Below, in pieces: positions 7,752 to 30,395 of a stretch of 46,515 nt of DNA. The notes under the pieces were generated by a model. The model worked only from the letters and a program-made list of their open reading frames with translations. It did no database searches and was not told the origin of the DNA. The stretch is taken from contig JAJSAH010000015.1 of NCBI GenBank assembly GCA_024274875.1, positions 1-46,515 of the forward strand, in the 5' to 3' direction. A program made the position numbers and the translations under genes. Within the stretch, counting starts at the first letter, position 1, and every line of letters starts with the position of its first letter. Source of the DNA: an archaeon. Lineage in GTDB: Archaea > Micrarchaeota > Micrarchaeia > CAILAH01.

Positions 7752-8633
7752 TCACCTTGTTTTATTCAAAAGCTTAAGAATCCTCTTTGCTCCTTTGGAC
7801 CTAAACGAAGATAATTGCATATAGGACTTTAGCGTATTTCCTGAACTGTCTTTAATATTAACATCCGCGCCTTTTTTAATGAGCAGTTCAGCCACATCAT
7901 AGTTCCTGTATAAATGCGCGTGCAGAAGAGCGGTTTTTCCAACATTATCAACAGCATTAATATCTGCTCCGCGCTTAATCAACAGTTCAACATTGCCAAG
8001 AGAGTTTCCCTTAGCTGCCTGCATAAGCAATGTTATGCCATCGGCACCAGCTAAATTTGCATCTACACCTTTGTCAAGGAATTGCTTAAGGATGCTGGAA
8101 TTGCTGAACCATGCGGCATACATCGCTGCCGCGTTTCCATTGTTATCCATAGCATGCACATTCGCTCCCTTCCCAATAAGCAGGTTTGCGAGAGAAAATA
8201 CATTGTTTATGCATGCGTGCATTAAGGGAGTTTTCCCATCACCATCAGCCAAATTTACATCTGCACCGTGCTCAATTAAGTGTTCCGCAATGTCAAAATG
8301 CCTGTTGTCAAGCGCGTAAGAGAGAGCTGTTCTCCCATGCGCATCAGAAATATGGGTAACCGCTCCCTTAGATATCAAAAATTTCACCATATCTAAATCT
8401 CCTCGCATGCTGGCAAACATAAGCGGAGATTGGCCTTCGGAATTAAGATAATTTGCGCTCGCGCCTTTTTTGATTAAGCGTTTTGCCTGCTTCAAATCTC
8501 CTATTTTCACAATTTCAAAAAGCTGCTTGCTTAAATTGATGCTTTTCTCTTCCATCGCATTCTCGTGCATCTTCTTAAATTCCTCACTCCTCCTGCGAAA
8601 AAGAGGAATGCGGCGAATAAACTTGAATGCCAT
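7752..8633 (-). CDS. Ankyrin-repeat protein 1 (first of three tandem genes)
   Basis: A 293-residue protein. A basic helical N-terminus (about residues 1-40, FRRRSEEFKKMHENAM) is followed by about seven regular ankyrin repeats such as GQSPLMFASMRGD, GRTALSYALDNRH, GKTPLMHACINN and GKTALLHAHLYRN. The frame is open to 8738, but that would overlap the DUF134 gene. ATG 8633 has a strong TATA (TATATATATA, 8651-8660) about 22 bp upstream, so a leaderless start there is preferred and makes this the head of the ankyrin operon. There is no signal peptide. Confidence 0.85.
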   Translation of the reverse strand: MAFKFIRRIPLFRRRSEEFKKMHENAMEEKSINLSKQLFEIVKIGDLKQAKRLIKKGASANYLNSEGQSPLMFASMRGDLDMVKFLISKGAVTHISDAHGRTALSYALDNRHFDIAEHLIEHGADVNLADGDGKTPLMHACINNVFSLANLLIGKGANVHAMDNNGNAAAMYAAWFSNSSILKQFLDKGVDANLAGADGITLLMQAAKGNSLGNVELLIKRGADINAVDNVGKTALLHAHLYRNYDVAELLIKKGADVNIKDSSGNTLKSYMQLSSFRSKGAKRILKLLNKTR

Positions 8634-8650
8634 ATCAAAGTTCAAATTTT

Positions 8651-8660
8651 TATATATATA
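8651..8660 (-). promoter_or_regulatory. TATA box of the ankyrin operon
   Basis: TATATATATA lies in the 34-bp gap between the end of the DUF134 gene (8668) and ATG 8633. Its placement supports initiation at or next to 8633 and separates the ankyrin operon from the metal-type operon upstream. Confidence 0.6.
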
Positions 8661-8667
8661 AACCTTT

Positions 8668-9063
8668 CTAAACATAGGGTGCGCTGCAGTTCGGGCAAAG
8701 TTTAGGCATGCCGAGCTTATCTGGGAATTTCCATTCATAACCGCATCTTTTGCATCTGTATGTTTTCAAGCGAGATCCGGGCATGCGCACTTCGCCGCCT
8801 TCTATTATTATTCGCTTGCCATTCACCAAAGCATCAGCTATTTTTGCACGCGCCTGAACAAGAATGCGGTGGAAGGTTGGCTGAGAGATGCGCATCTTCT
8901 CAGCGCAGGCGCTTTGGTCAAGACCTTCATAATCGCTCAATCGCACCGCCTCAAATTCCTCAAACGCAAGCTGAATCACAGGAGCATCAACGCTTGCAGG
9001 GGGGCCAAATGCCCTAATTTTCGGACAGTAAGATACGCGCCTCCATCTTCTCCTTGGGGGAAT
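8668..9063 (-). CDS. DUF134 family DNA-binding protein, probable ATT start codon
   Basis: A 131-residue protein by this call. The DUF134 N-terminus (RRRWRRV ... FGP) is encoded upstream of the first in-frame ATG/GTG (GTG 8979), so a start there would delete conserved sequence. The frame is open back to 9075 with no ATG, GTG or TTG. The only well-placed codon is ATT at 9063, 5 nt after SD GAGGTG, the same geometry as neighbouring genes. The middle holds the helix-turn-helix (EGLDQSACAEKMRISQPTFHR). The C-terminus is a zinc ribbon (CKRCGYEW, CPNCSAPYV). It is probably a transcription factor for its own operon. The NifX-like gene ends 4 bp upstream, with its TGA inside the SD. Confidence 0.8.
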   Translation of the reverse strand: MPPRRRWRRVSYCPKIRAFGPPASVDAPVIQLAFEEFEAVRLSDYEGLDQSACAEKMRISQPTFHRILVQARAKIADALVNGKRIIIEGGEVRMPGSRLKTYRCKRCGYEWKFPDKLGMPKLCPNCSAPYV

Positions 9064-24643: not shown

Positions 24644-25633
24644 ATGATTGAAATAGATGGGAGTTATTTAGAAGGCGGCGGGCAAATACTTAGAACATCC
24701 CTTGCTTTAAGCGCAGTATTAGAGCTGCCGTTTCATATTAAAAATATTAGGGCAAACAGGCCTAAAAAAGGGATGATGCCGCAGCATCTCGCTGCAGTGA
24801 AAGCCGTTGAAGAGATTACCGGAGCAGATGTTTCTAATATAAGTTTGTCATGCGCAGAGTTTGCTTTCAAACCAGGGAACATTTCAAGCGGAAAGTATTT
24901 TTTTAATATAGGGACAGCAGGATCTGCAACATTATTGTCTCAAATGATTATTCCAGTGCTTATTTTCTCAAAGAGCGCAAGCACCGTTAAAATAAAAGGA
25001 GGCACGCATGTAATAAAATCACCCTCATATGAGTATTTTAATCATTGCTTCCTGCGAAACATAAGTATGATGAATGCCCGCGTGCGCTCTGAGATGCTGG
25101 CGCCAGGGTTTTATCCAAAAGGAGGGGGCATTATAAAATTAGATATTCATCCAAGCGCGCTTCAAAGATATGATTTTATAAATAGGGGCAACGCAAGGCA
25201 TGTTAAAGTATACATTATTTCATCTAATCTTCCTTCCCATGTAAATGCGAGGGAGAAAATGCATTTGTTAAAGGCGATGCCAGAAGCAGAAATAATTGAT
25301 GAAAATTATAATGAATTAAGCGCAGGAAATTGCATAACGATAATAGAAGATTATGATAAATTTAGCATAGGTGTTGATGAATTAGGGAGGGTTGGCAAAC
25401 CAGCTGAAAAGGTTGCGAGAGATGCATTGAGTAATTTCTCGCACGAGCGATCACATAATGGCGCAGACAATAATATGGTTGATCAACTGTTGTTATATAT
25501 TGCCCTTGCTGGAAAAGGCAGCATAAAATATGATAAAATATCCAACCACGCAAGAACAAATATGTATGTAATTTCACAGTTCACTGGAAATAATTTTGAA
25601 GTGGATGATGAATCAAAAACTATTTTTTATTGA
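24644..25633 (+). CDS. rtcA: RNA 3'-terminal phosphate cyclase
   Basis: This 329-residue enzyme converts RNA 3'-phosphate to a 2',3'-cyclic phosphate through a covalent AMP-histidine intermediate. Family landmarks are EGGGQILRTSLALS near residue 10, ANRPKKGMMPQHLAA, GTAGSATLLSQ near 87, GGTHVIKSPSYEY near 119, GFYPKGGG near 158 and the nucleophile His in SNHARTNMYVISQF near 302. The length is close to typical (about 340). The catalytic set looks intact. It overlaps thiI at the 3' end by 14 bp; with introns in both tRNA genes here, a link to RNA repair or splicing is possible but unproven. Confidence 0.94.
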   Translation: MIEIDGSYLEGGGQILRTSLALSAVLELPFHIKNIRANRPKKGMMPQHLAAVKAVEEITGADVSNISLSCAEFAFKPGNISSGKYFFNIGTAGSATLLSQMIIPVLIFSKSASTVKIKGGTHVIKSPSYEYFNHCFLRNISMMNARVRSEMLAPGFYPKGGGIIKLDIHPSALQRYDFINRGNARHVKVYIISSNLPSHVNAREKMHLLKAMPEAEIIDENYNELSAGNCITIIEDYDKFSIGVDELGRVGKPAEKVARDALSNFSHERSHNGADNNMVDQLLLYIALAGKGSIKYDKISNHARTNMYVISQFTGNNFEVDDESKTIFY

Positions 25634-26963
25634 TTATTTTATTGTATGATGATGTTTTTATTCCAACGCATTCATACCCGAGCGATTTAAGTTTATCGCA
25701 CTCAATCTCTGCCAGAACCCCTTCTTTGCAAGTTATAACATAAAAAATGCCTTTGTCAAGATTTTTTATGTTTATGCTTTGCGCATCAATGTTTATCATT
25801 TCGTGTTTTTTAGGTATATTTATTGATGCGGCGTGCGAATGCGTCAATGTAACTATAGATACATTATCAACAGCCCCACTTATCTTTTTATATTGCGCTT
25901 CAACATCACTGCCGCTTGCAGAAGTTTTTACAGCGCCCTTTGAAATATTGCATAACTCCCCAACTCTTATGGATAGATCATACGTCCCTATATTTTTTGC
26001 AATGCGCACCACTTCTTCTTTGTCAAATCCAACTATTGGCCTGATAAAAAGGCAGTTAATTCCTTCCTGTATTGCTGCAATATTTCTTATTGTTTGGGTT
26101 GACACCTGTCCAATACTCTCTCCAGTAATAACTGCATCAAGCTTTTTTTGTTTGCATATTTTTTCAGCAATTTTATAGAATGCTTTTTTAAGCACGACTT
26201 GAGAATAGGCTGGAGCAACGCATTTTTTAATTCGCTCAACTATTTCAACTCCTTCTGCGACCATAAAATCTATATTATGGCCAGGACACCATTTATCAGT
26301 TAGAGCTTTGCACACATTCAAAACATTGTTAAGATTTTGCTCTCCGCCCAAATTTATGAATAGGAAAGAAGGTTTGCACCCTCTTTTCATAACATACCAT
26401 GATGCTACAGGAGAATCTAACCCTCCGGAAAACAGCACAAGAACTCTTCCCTCAGCTCCCAGCGGAAGTCCGTTTGGACCGGAGCATTTTTTATCATAAA
26501 TATATGCAACATTATTTGCTATTTCTACATATATGTTAATATCCCAGTTTTCAAGGTCAACTTTTGCACCGCATTTTCTCACATACTCTCCAACCACTTT
26601 CTGCACATCCATCGAATTAAACGCATGCTCCCCTTTTCTTCGCGCAGTAATTCGAAATGTCTTTCCTTTAACCTGTTCTTTGTACATTTCAGCAACGTTG
26701 TTGCCGAGTTCATTGAGATTTAAAAAATGGACTATTTTTACCAGCGCATAATATGATATCCCAAAGACATATTTTAGTTTTTCGAGGAGCCTTTCTTTTG
26801 AGCTTTTTTCCTTAGGAAAAAGGTAAATTCTTCCTCTATCTATTTTCAAACTAAATTCATTTGATATTTTCTTTATATTGTCCAACAATATCCTTTCAAA
26901 TCTTTTTTTTGTTTTTTTACCTTTAAGCCAAATCTCTGAATATGCCACAAGTATGCATTCCAT
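25620..26963 (-). CDS. thiI: tRNA 4-thiouridine synthase ThiI with a vestigial rhodanese region
   Basis: A 447-residue protein: N-terminal ferredoxin-like and THUMP domain (about 1-165) that binds tRNA, then a PP-loop AANH domain with LFSGGLDSPVASW (near 176) and GESIGQVSTQT. The last 60 residues (VITCKEGVLA ... LKSLGYECVGI) align with the end of the bacterial ThiI rhodanese domain, including its catalytic Cys loop (CxxGV), but the start of that domain is reduced. It makes s4U8 in tRNA and may supply sulfur for thiamine. ATG 26963 lies about 27 bp from a shared TATA box. Confidence 0.92.
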   Translation of the reverse strand: MECILVAYSEIWLKGKKTKKRFERILLDNIKKISNEFSLKIDRGRIYLFPKEKSSKERLLEKLKYVFGISYYALVKIVHFLNLNELGNNVAEMYKEQVKGKTFRITARRKGEHAFNSMDVQKVVGEYVRKCGAKVDLENWDINIYVEIANNVAYIYDKKCSGPNGLPLGAEGRVLVLFSGGLDSPVASWYVMKRGCKPSFLFINLGGEQNLNNVLNVCKALTDKWCPGHNIDFMVAEGVEIVERIKKCVAPAYSQVVLKKAFYKIAEKICKQKKLDAVITGESIGQVSTQTIRNIAAIQEGINCLFIRPIVGFDKEEVVRIAKNIGTYDLSIRVGELCNISKGAVKTSASGSDVEAQYKKISGAVDNVSIVTLTHSHAASINIPKKHEMINIDAQSINIKNLDKGIFYVITCKEGVLAEIECDKLKSLGYECVGIKTSSYNKIINKK

Positions 26964-27015: not shown

Positions 27016-27777
27016 ATGAGAGAAGTGCTGTATGTTGATGTAAGACCAAAATATGAGAACGAGGCAATTTCCAGAAGATTGCAAAAAAAACTTGTAATTC
27101 CAAAAAAATTCGGCTCGTGGTCGCATTATTTGATAAACGAAGCGTTGAGAGGGACTTGCAGATGGTATGAATCCAAGTTAGATTATCTTAATGCGTGGGA
27201 GGACCTAAGCATTCCTGATGGATACGATGCATATATTATAGGCAGCAGGGGAAAAAGCTCTTCTTCCGACACAGATTCTTTGCGCATGGATGAATTTTTG
27301 GATTGGAAGGCAAAATTTGTTGAGTTGTTAAAAACCCAACTCAATAAAAAGAAATTTATTGGAATATGTTTTGGCCATCAACTGATTGGCCTTGCGCTTG
27401 GATTGGATGCAGTTAAGATGAACCGCAGTTTTTATGGGTTAATCCCAATAGATGCATTTAAATTTAAGAATATATTTTTATCGTATCATCGCTATAGATT
27501 GTGCGCAAAGCAGTTAAGCAATATGTCTTTCATCAAATCGCGCGGGATTATACAGATCTTGATTAAGAATGGATTTGTCCCAAGCGTAGGGTTTCAATTT
27601 CATCCAGAATACGGCGCATCTCTGTTTGGGATTCAAGCATACATTGCAAGATACGGCATGCGCAGTAGCGTTTTAAAAAATAAGCAAAAATTGATAAATT
27701 CCTCGCTTAGAATTTTAGATTTATCTTATGATTTTTTGGAAGGTAATCGCAATGTGTGGAATAATTGTATGCAGTGA
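27016..27777 (+). CDS. Class I glutamine amidotransferase (GMP-synthase-like)
   Basis: A 253-residue protein with a GATase1 domain. The nucleophile elbow is GICFGHQLIGLALG (Cys near residue 118), and the rest of the triad is in FQFHPEYG (near 196). YIIGSRGKSS forms the oxyanion region. It lacks a fused synthetase domain and would release ammonia from glutamine for a partner. Its last 26 bp overlap the AsnB-Dph6 fusion gene, which suggests coupled expression. An in-frame ATG at 27013 is an alternative; ATG 27016 fits the promoter spacing better. Confidence 0.85.
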   Translation: MREVLYVDVRPKYENEAISRRLQKKLVIPKKFGSWSHYLINEALRGTCRWYESKLDYLNAWEDLSIPDGYDAYIIGSRGKSSSSDTDSLRMDEFLDWKAKFVELLKTQLNKKKFIGICFGHQLIGLALGLDAVKMNRSFYGLIPIDAFKFKNIFLSYHRYRLCAKQLSNMSFIKSRGIIQILIKNGFVPSVGFQFHPEYGASLFGIQAYIARYGMRSSVLKNKQKLINSSLRILDLSYDFLEGNRNVWNNCMQ

Positions 27778-29695
27778 GCATTATGCAGATATTGACGGCG
27801 CTGAATCAAGTGTTTCGCACAGGGGCGCATCATCTCATAAGAGGATATGCAAAGACGGCATTGTTTTTTCACATTTCCTTCATTCAGTAGTTGGAAATAA
27901 TATTGTTCAGCCATTTGAAGGCAGGGGAATTCTTGTTGCTAACTGCGAGATTTATAACTGGAAGCAGCTTGCTGAAGAGCACGGCATTTCCGCGCGCAAT
28001 GATGCCGAAATGTTGTTTAAGCTGCTTGAACGCGCAAAATTAGATGAGAACAGTTTGTTGCAGCTTATTAATGAATTAGATGGGGATTTTGCGTGCGTTT
28101 ATTACAGAGAAGGCACAATGATTGCGTTCAGGGATCCAATAGGAGTCAACCCTTTGTTTTATTCTCTTGATCCTTTGCTGTTTGCTTCTGAAAGATGCGC
28201 TGCGCCAGCGCAATTAAGAGAACTGCATCCTAGGCATATTCTTGTGCATAAAATGGCGGCTAATAAAACAAAAAGCATTTACAACAATATTTTTAGTTTG
28301 GCTGAGCATTCTCAATCATCATCTTATAAGAGCATAGAACGCGCATTGCTCGATGCAGTTGACAAAAGGGCATGCGAAGCAAAATCGGGCATTTTGTTCT
28401 CAGGAGGCATAGATTCTGCGTTCATTGCTTTAAGAATGCAGGAAATCGGAAAGCGAATTGCATTATATACAACAAGCGTTGGCAGGAGTTCTAGTGATTT
28501 AGACGCATCAAGAGCGTTTGCAGATGCGCATGGGTTTGAGTTAAAGGAAATTAATGTTTCTTATGATGAGCTGCTTTCTCACATTCCGAAAATCTGCAGC
28601 ACTATAAGTTCGTGCGATTCGGTTAAAGTTGGTGTTGCGGTCCCCATATACTTTTCTGCTATGTCTGCGGCTAGGGACGGCATTAAAGTATTATTTTCAG
28701 GTTTGGGGTCGGACGATATATTTGCTGGATATCACAGATTTAGAGGAGGATATAACATTCGCAATGAACAGCTAAGCTCATTGAGAAGCATATATGAAAG
28801 GGACACTTATAGAGACAACACTGCATGCATGAGAAACCATGCTGAGCTTAGGGTTCCTTTCCTTGATAAAATATTGGTGCAGGAATGCCTGCGCGCTCCA
28901 GAAAAATGGCTTCAAGACAAGATGATTCTGCGCAAAATATTGATGCATCGTTATTCATTAGACAAACGATTCTACGGCAGGCCAAAAAAGGCAGCGCAGT
29001 ATGGTTCAAATTCAATGAAATGCCTGCGCAAGCATGCAAAGAACCAAGGAAAAACAATAAATTCTTTCTTATTTCGTTTGCACCCTCGTAAGAATATAAA
29101 ACTTGGTGCGCTTTACACTGGGGGAAAAGACAGCGCATATGCATTGTATTTAATGGCGCTAAGAAACTATGATATTTCTTGTTTGATTACAGTTAAAAGC
29201 TCTAACCCGCATTCATTCATGTTTCACACTCCGAGAATAGATGCCGTTGAAAACCATTCTATTTTAATGAGCATTCCGTTAGTGAAGGAGAAAAGCGCAG
29301 GAGACAAAGAAAGGGAGCTTATTGACCTGCGCAAAGCAATACACCGAGCAATAAAATTATATGGGGTAGAAGGCGTAATAACAGGGGCGCTGTATTCAGA
29401 TTATCAACGTTCTCGGATAGAAAAAATATGCGATGAGCTTGGCATTAGGGCGTTCTCTCCTTTATGGCATGTCGATCAGGAAACGCACATGAAAAGGCTC
29501 CTTAAAGACGGGTTTAAGTTCATCATAACTTCCGTGTCTTCTGAGGGTTTAGATGAGAGTTGGATTGGCAGAGTTTCCGATGCGCAAATGCTTGAAGACC
29601 TAAAGGTTCTCAGCAAAAAATATGGGATCAACATATCAGGAGAAGGCGGCGAGTATGAATCTCTTGTTGTAGAATGCCCATTGTTCAAAATTTAA
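27752..29695 (+). CDS. Asparagine synthetase-diphthine ammonia ligase (AsnB-Dph6) fusion
   Basis: A 647-residue fusion. Residues 1-180 are an Ntn-type glutaminase: MCGIIV puts Cys2 at the N-terminus, with SHRG, NCEIYN, LDGDFAC and RDPIGVNPLFYS. Residues 185-430 are an asparagine-synthetase PP-loop domain with ILFSGGIDSAF (215-225) and FSGLGSDDIFAGYHR (315-329). Residues 450-647 are a Dph6-type PP-loop ATPase with YTGGKDSAYALY (about 455-466), GALYSDYQ, HMKRLLKDGFK and the closing GEGGEYESLVVECPLF. All nucleotide-binding motifs look intact. Asparagine synthesis and the final amidation of diphthamide on EF-2 both need ammonia, so glutaminase-fed amidation by Dph6 is an attractive inference. ATG 27752 is fixed by the Cys2 requirement. 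Confidence 0.9.
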   Translation: MCGIIVCSEHYADIDGAESSVSHRGASSHKRICKDGIVFSHFLHSVVGNNIVQPFEGRGILVANCEIYNWKQLAEEHGISARNDAEMLFKLLERAKLDENSLLQLINELDGDFACVYYREGTMIAFRDPIGVNPLFYSLDPLLFASERCAAPAQLRELHPRHILVHKMAANKTKSIYNNIFSLAEHSQSSSYKSIERALLDAVDKRACEAKSGILFSGGIDSAFIALRMQEIGKRIALYTTSVGRSSSDLDASRAFADAHGFELKEINVSYDELLSHIPKICSTISSCDSVKVGVAVPIYFSAMSAARDGIKVLFSGLGSDDIFAGYHRFRGGYNIRNEQLSSLRSIYERDTYRDNTACMRNHAELRVPFLDKILVQECLRAPEKWLQDKMILRKILMHRYSLDKRFYGRPKKAAQYGSNSMKCLRKHAKNQGKTINSFLFRLHPRKNIKLGALYTGGKDSAYALYLMALRNYDISCLITVKSSNPHSFMFHTPRIDAVENHSILMSIPLVKEKSAGDKERELIDLRKAIHRAIKLYGVEGVITGALYSDYQRSRIEKICDELGIRAFSPLWHVDQETHMKRLLKDGFKFIITSVSSEGLDESWIGRVSDAQMLEDLKVLSKKYGINISGEGGEYESLVVECPLFKI

Positions 29696-29753
29696 GGCAA
29701 TTAACGAAAGCAATATATTATAAATATTATTGTCGACTTTGTTTTGTGGTAAT

Positions 29754-30395
29754 ATGACCTTGTTGGATACATTTTATGCGCAGTTGACGAGCAATCTTAT
29801 GGTATATACCCCCAATGTTCTTTTGGCGCTTGCCATACTTATTGTGGGGTATGTTGTCGGAAAAGTTGTGGACGCCATACTTAAGGCGGTGCTTAAAAAA
29901 GCGGATGTGGATAAGTATTTCAGAAAACCAAGCTTGCCTAAGATATCTGAGTTTGTTCCTTTTGTGTGCAAGTGGTATGTATATTTAGCATTTATCAGTG
30001 CAGCGTTTTCTCAAGAGGTGCTTGGCATACCGATGATTGCCTTATGGGTTGCAAGCATAATGTCATTCATACCTAATGTGGTTGGTGCGGCCGTCATTCT
30101 CTTTGTTGGATATGTGTTGGGCCAGTGGCTCAAAGACACAATTTCAGTAAAAAGGAATGTATACGCTGAGATAACTGGTAACACAGTGCTTTTCTTTGTT
30201 ATGTATGTGGCTCTTGCGATGGCTTTAAATTTGCTATCCATTCCAACCACGCTTATAGAAATGATACTAGTGATTGTTGTTGCATCTGTTGGTTTAGGCC
30301 TCGCCATCGCGTTGGGGTTAGGTTTAAAGGATGTTGTGCGAGAGATATCTTTTGAGTTTGTTAGGGCGCAGAGATCTAAGGTAAGAAAGAAATAA
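29754..30395 (+). CDS. MscS-like small membrane protein (conserved TM-helix repeats)
   Basis: A 213-residue membrane protein with four hydrophobic helices arranged as two similar units (NVLLALAILIVGYVVGKVVD and NVVGAAVILFVGYVLGQWLK). These are the conserved TM-helix repeats seen with MscS-type channels, and the closing GLGLAIALGLGLKDVVREI is like the MscS pore helix. No cytosolic MscS beta domain follows, so channel activity is only a suggestion. TTATAAATA near 29722 and GTGGT before ATG 29754 support the start. Confidence 0.78.
   Translation: MTLLDTFYAQLTSNLMVYTPNVLLALAILIVGYVVGKVVDAILKAVLKKADVDKYFRKPSLPKISEFVPFVCKWYVYLAFISAAFSQEVLGIPMIALWVASIMSFIPNVVGAAVILFVGYVLGQWLKDTISVKRNVYAEITGNTVLFFVMYVALAMALNLLSIPTTLIEMILVIVVASVGLGLAIALGLGLKDVVREISFEFVRAQRSKVRKK

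Follow-up and report, generated by a model that had tools for sequence, protein, structure and literature searches.

The window analysed here, a stretch of 46,515 nt from an archaeal genome, carries on its forward strand a gene for a class I glutamine amidotransferase, the end of which overlaps the start of a gene for a large three-domain protein (Table 1). From N- to C-terminus, this protein consists of a domain like the Ntn glutaminases, a PP-loop domain like that of AsnB, and Dph6 (diphthine-ammonia ligase). The open reading frame has an upstream ATG at 27728; the start was set at 27752 because the catalytic Cys must be residue 2 (MCGI). The overlap of the two genes is exactly as claimed in an earlier note made from the sequence. 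Pfam matches are found along the chain in the order GATase_7 (5e-14), Asn_synthase (2e-34) and Diphthami_syn_2 (2.5e-59), and both PP-loops are intact (SGGIDS, residues 217-222; TGGKDS, residues 456-461).

Table 1. Genes and domains around the three-domain fusion (window coordinates). Arg-48, Gly-75 and Glu-364 follow human asparagine synthetase (ASNS) numbering.
Feature	Position	Strand	Size and residues
Divergent thiI (third PP-loop enzyme)	25620-26963		
Class I glutamine amidotransferase	27016..27777	+	253 aa; C118-H196-E198; lineage-specific neighbour
Overlap of class I gene and fusion	27752..27777	+	26 bp
Ntn glutaminase-like / AsnB-like PP-loop / Dph6 three-domain protein	27752..29695	+	647 aa
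Ntn (class II amidotransferase-like) domain	27752..28201	+	approx. residues 1-150; Cys2, Asn64, Glu66, Asp84 kept; Arg-48 equivalent is Leu43, Gly-75 equivalent is Cys65
AsnB-like PP-loop domain	28316..29044	+	approx. residues 189-431; SGGIDS kept; SGEGSDE motif changed to SGLGSDD; Glu-364 equivalent is Leu318
Dph6 (diphthine-ammonia ligase) domain	29099..29692	+	residues 450-646; TGGKDS, YQ (551-552) and EGGEYE (631-636) intact
Mechanosensitive-channel-like membrane protein gene	29730-30395		

An AlphaFold2 model built on an alignment of 68 sequences is a single well-packed protein (mean pLDDT 93, pTM 0.91). Over about 500 columns its front follows the fold of AsnB from E. coli and of human ASNS; its back superimposes on PF0828/PH1257 with an rmsd of 1.4-1.5 Å, with 42% identity to PF0828 over about 200 residues. 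The domain order and the model thus bear out the proposal that a single polypeptide unites the three activities' folds. An assembly error as the source of the join was ruled out, because the same three-domain order recurs in dozens of independent assemblies, two complete genomes among them, and because the model is one packed protein.

The fusion scores 255.2 bits against the NCBIfam family Dph6_archaeal (TIGR03679), above the equivalog cut-off of 197.3. The motif EGGE/D-x-E is a Dph6 signature, as opposed to the B12-type ENGEF/YH (PMC3541065), and the fusion carries the former as EGGEYE. In an alignment of 84 fusions that includes the window's protein, EGGExE (with its E and G positions), YQ and GKD are invariant in all 84. 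The host genome (833 kb, 90% complete) contains dph2 and dph5, and its EF-2 carries the diphthamide histidine, IHEDPVHRGPAQ. No second dph6 was found there, the fusion being the only PF01902 match, although a missed copy is conceivable in a genome about 90% complete. The fused (or two-domain) protein is likewise the only PF01902 protein in 17 of the 19 related genomes checked; the other two have a stand-alone copy in addition. Judging from sequence, the fusion is very probably the diphthine-ammonia ligase of the source archaeon. The Dph6 role and intact Dph6 PP-loop read from the locus earlier are supported by the equivalog score, the kept signatures and the pathway genes, and neither a separate dph6 in the host genome nor loss of Dph6 residues in the 84-sequence alignment was found. 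The Dph6 domain of the window's protein (29600-29695) stops right after the EGGE strand, without the C-terminal stretch of about 25 residues that stand-alone Dph6 and most fusions have; the same shortening apparently occurs at two other loci (L005, L088) and in Nanohaloarchaea.

The architecture is already known. An AsnB-DUF71 fusion was described by de Crecy-Lagard et al. in 2012 in Methanohalophilus mahii, Methanosalsum zhilinae and Nanosalinarum (PMC3541065), and the window's protein likewise holds GAT-II, Asn_synthase and DUF71 in a single chain. These authors proposed the GAT-II domain as ammonia source for both PP-loops, and a reviewer of that paper queried the role of the middle PP-loop (PMC3541065); among the papers that we searched, none has since answered this query. 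A genome scan, in line with the search suggested in the earlier note, found 117 relatives in DPANN archaea and Methanosarcinaceae; among those listed, the labels are mainly Woesearchaeota/Nanoarchaeota, Nanohaloarchaea, Iainarchaeum/Diapherotrites, Altiarchaeota, Micrarchaeum and Methanosarcinaceae. In a tree of Dph6 domains, where the stand-alone copies are micrarchaeal only, a branch supported at 100/99 separates these copies from all the fused proteins, from which we take the fusion to be old. Two micrarchaeal proteins, at loci L090 (G081) and L091 (G009), consist of the AsnB-like PP-loop and Dph6 domains without Ntn (open reading frames of 481 and 540 aa). They are nested inside the three-domain group, so that a secondary loss of Ntn explains them best. 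One three-domain fusion lies on a contig labelled 'bacterium', with flanking genes like those of three Woesearchaeota-type loci; this label probably reflects a mistake in binning or naming.

The AsnB-like module departs from asparagine synthetase in both of its domains. Conservation was counted in the 84-sequence alignment, with 83 sequences scored at the Ntn positions, and pocket and catalytic residues are numbered as in human ASNS (PMC6748925). The equivalent of Glu-364 (Glu-348 of AS-B), in the motif SGEGxDE, is never Glu: it is Leu in 53 sequences, Ser in 25 and another residue in six. In human ASNS the variants E364A and E364Q are inactive (PMC6748925), and Glu-364 sits in the tunnel, adjoining the synthetase site (PMC11615228). 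Moreover, two residues of the glutamine pocket as defined for ASNS (PMC6748925) are replaced throughout, Arg-48 by Leu and Gly-75, in the motif NGEIYN, by Cys (83/83 each). This altered pocket, present in every relative examined, was absent from the earlier note. The same Arg and Gly are kept in all six ordinary AsnB relatives taken from carriers and other micrarchaea; the Glu is also absent from three of these six, which are perhaps not asparagine synthetases themselves. Much else is retained. The catalytic Cys2 is present in 82 of 83 sequences, the Ntn-site equivalents of Asn-74, Glu-76 and Asp-96 are conserved, as is that of Glu-414, and the middle PP-loop reads SGGxDS in all 84. The conservation of these residues together with both PP-loops points to changed function or substrate rather than decay. 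Given the lost glutamine-binding Arg, the Ntn site could even not be a glutaminase at all.

These counts bear on the bifunctional enzyme envisaged in 2012 and in the earlier note, in which ammonia from the Ntn site would feed both PP-loops and yield asparagine as well as diphthamide. The invariant SGGxDS motif speaks for it, as do the Lys and Asp/Arg residues on the substrate side, conserved in most sequences, and the fact that the fusion is the only PF00733 protein in the host genome. However, the residue that is essential in human ASNS is lost in 84 of 84 sequences, and the fusion reaches only 191.7 bits against asn_synth_AEB (TIGR01536), below the cut-off of 267.1. The host also has another candidate route to asparagine. 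Immediately upstream of its AsnRS lies a 304-aa paralogue of the AsnRS catalytic domain (L150:2527-3441; host contig C12, about 8026-8940) that is closest to the archaeal asparagine synthetase A of P. abyssi (3p8t, E 5e-70), and which is therefore a candidate for a separate AsnA-type synthetase. The Methanolobus carriers have GatB and no AsnRS above the cut-off, which implies tRNA-dependent formation of Asn; these methanogens thus appear to make Asn on tRNA. In three of the five Methanolobus carriers checked (G198, G199, G209), no other full AsnB-like match was found. We consider the bifunctional enzyme improbable. Of what had been read from the sequence, the intact SGGIDS loop stands, while an intact asparagine synthetase does not. 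The suggested tie between asparagine supply and EF-2 modification is unlikely, because the residues are lost, an AsnA-type synthetase appears to lie beside AsnRS here and the methanogens appear to use the tRNA route.

The opposite possibility is that Ntn and the AsnB-like domain have degenerated and now serve structure alone, with Dph6 working on free ammonium as usual. The changed glutamine pocket and the loss of the Ntn domain within the fused clade would fit such leftovers. However, at an overall identity of about 40%, Cys2 is present in 82 of 83 scored sequences, and N64, E66, D84 and the two PP-loops are strictly conserved; this is unlike decay, and we give this possibility little weight.

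The explanation that we favour, with moderate confidence, is that the fusion is a diphthine-ammonia ligase whose Ntn and AsnB-like module serves the diphthamide step rather than asparagine synthesis. The C-terminal Dph6 domain would activate the diphthine carboxylate of EF-2 with ATP and then amidate it, and the two preceding domains would act together as a single rigid module, shaped like AsnB and dedicated to this reaction. The Ntn Cys2 site would free ammonia from an amide donor, either glutamine or, since the Arg that usually binds glutamine is missing, a different amide. We infer that this ammonia would enter the middle domain along an AsnB-type tunnel and reach the Dph6 site past the position of the synthetase-end Glu, here Leu or Ser, ATP at the middle PP-loop probably gating or positioning the transfer. 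Since Glu-364 of ASNS lies in the tunnel by the synthetase site, Leu or Ser at this position is compatible with a conduit, although this is suggestive only. That glutaminase ammonia might be passed to diphthamide amidation, as the earlier note proposed, is a sensible idea that had already appeared in PMC3541065. Several points count against our explanation. The proteins at L090 and L091 have no Ntn domain, so a glutaminase is not always needed. With its glutamine-binding Arg lost, the Ntn site may have another activity than that of a glutaminase. Stand-alone Dph6, for its part, functions without a fused glutaminase, using free ammonium as usual. Finally, at about 90% completeness the host genome could conceal a second dph6.

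More tentatively, and at somewhat less than an even chance, we propose that the AsnB module has been converted to a dedicated ammonia-delivery (or second-substrate) module, with an Arg-less Ntn donor site and, next to the oxyanion hole, an invariant Cys that is new; a protein modification would then be driven by a class II amidotransferase whose donor chemistry has changed.

The middle PP-loop could instead make the fusion a true two-reaction enzyme, in which this domain amidates or adenylates a substrate other than aspartate. Its PP-loop motif, R367, D372 and AAQYGS are strictly or nearly strictly kept though the domain no longer matches asparagine synthetase, and it is retained without Ntn in two lineages. 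There is also a precedent in another AsnB-family member, which amidates meso-diaminopimelate (PMC8554201). However, a gating or structural role would equally explain the conservation, and the neighbour survey found neither a candidate substrate nor a conserved neighbour gene. This alternative seems unlikely to us, if less so than the bifunctional enzyme.

The class I amidotransferase has a complete Cys-His-Glu triad, as had been stated: C118 lies in GICFGHQ, and H196 and E198 lie in FQFHPE. It matches PF00117 (GATase class I) at 5e-11, while all NCBIfam matches fall far below their cut-offs and name no enzyme; a single-sequence structure model reaches a pLDDT of 35, too low to be of use. The intact triad and the 26-bp overlap on the same strand would suit a functional pair in which this protein is a second ammonia source or a regulator of the fusion. 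However, no homologue was detectable beside the other fusions in the loci surveyed, nor was one found in four genomes of the same family, of which three are incomplete. The two nearest relatives have the order thiI (divergent), fusion, Mut7-C RNase, with no class I gene, whereas in the window the class I gene and the mechanosensitive-channel-like gene flank the fusion. Such a pair is in our opinion very improbable. A conserved operon of two glutaminases, as a system, was ruled out by synteny with two sister genera, and the class I gene is lineage-specific. Under the favoured diphthine-ammonia ligase explanation, it is a co-transcribed passenger or lineage-specific extra, not a conserved partner.

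Other neighbours were recorded. The divergent thiI adjoining the fusion is conserved in three micrarchaeal genera, and the channel-like gene, which separates the fusion from the gene for the Mut7-C RNase, is absent from that position in two sister genera. Eight Methanosarcinaceae loci encode a PurQ-like class I amidotransferase on the strand opposite to the fusion, at a distance of about 1.6 kb; in the neighbour survey it showed no detectable similarity to the window's class I protein, and a motif scan had found no homologue of the latter close by. The survey of genes next to the fusions gave no convincing functional hint.

Across the whole family, the module has lost residues for making asparagine and for binding glutamine in the standard way, but keeps nearly all other catalytic features. 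By this pattern it is not an ordinary asparagine synthetase, and it is not junk either. If confirmed, this would add a rare case of protein modification driven by glutamine or another amide, and the asparagine-synthetase annotation would go from many archaeal genomes.

Comparison with known systems places the protein closest to the 2012 AsnB-DUF71 fusion, with identical domains in identical order and Methanosarcinaceae and Nanohaloarchaea also among the relatives found here. The window's copy differs in lying in a micrarchaeal-type genome, in having a private class I amidotransferase upstream, and in a Dph6 domain that ends soon after EGGE. It resembles stand-alone archaeal Dph6 (PF0828/PH1257, TIGR03679) in sequence, fold and EGGE/D-x-E signature, but is joined to an AsnB-like module, the fused copies forming a separate group (100/99). 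With E. coli AsnB (1ct9) and human ASNS (6gq3) it shares the Ntn and PP-loop fold (TM 0.76-0.78 to 1ct9, by target length) and, as in asparagine synthetase B, the catalytic Cys and the Asn-74, Glu-76, Asp-96 and Glu-414 equivalents. It differs from the latter by Arg-48 to Leu, Gly-75 to Cys, Glu-364 to Leu/Ser and the extra Dph6 domain. Finally, as in beta-lactam synthetase, carbapenam synthetase and the DAP-amidating AsnB (PMC8554201), the AsnB scaffold would be put to another reaction; unlike the fusion, these enzymes have no fused second PP-loop ligase.
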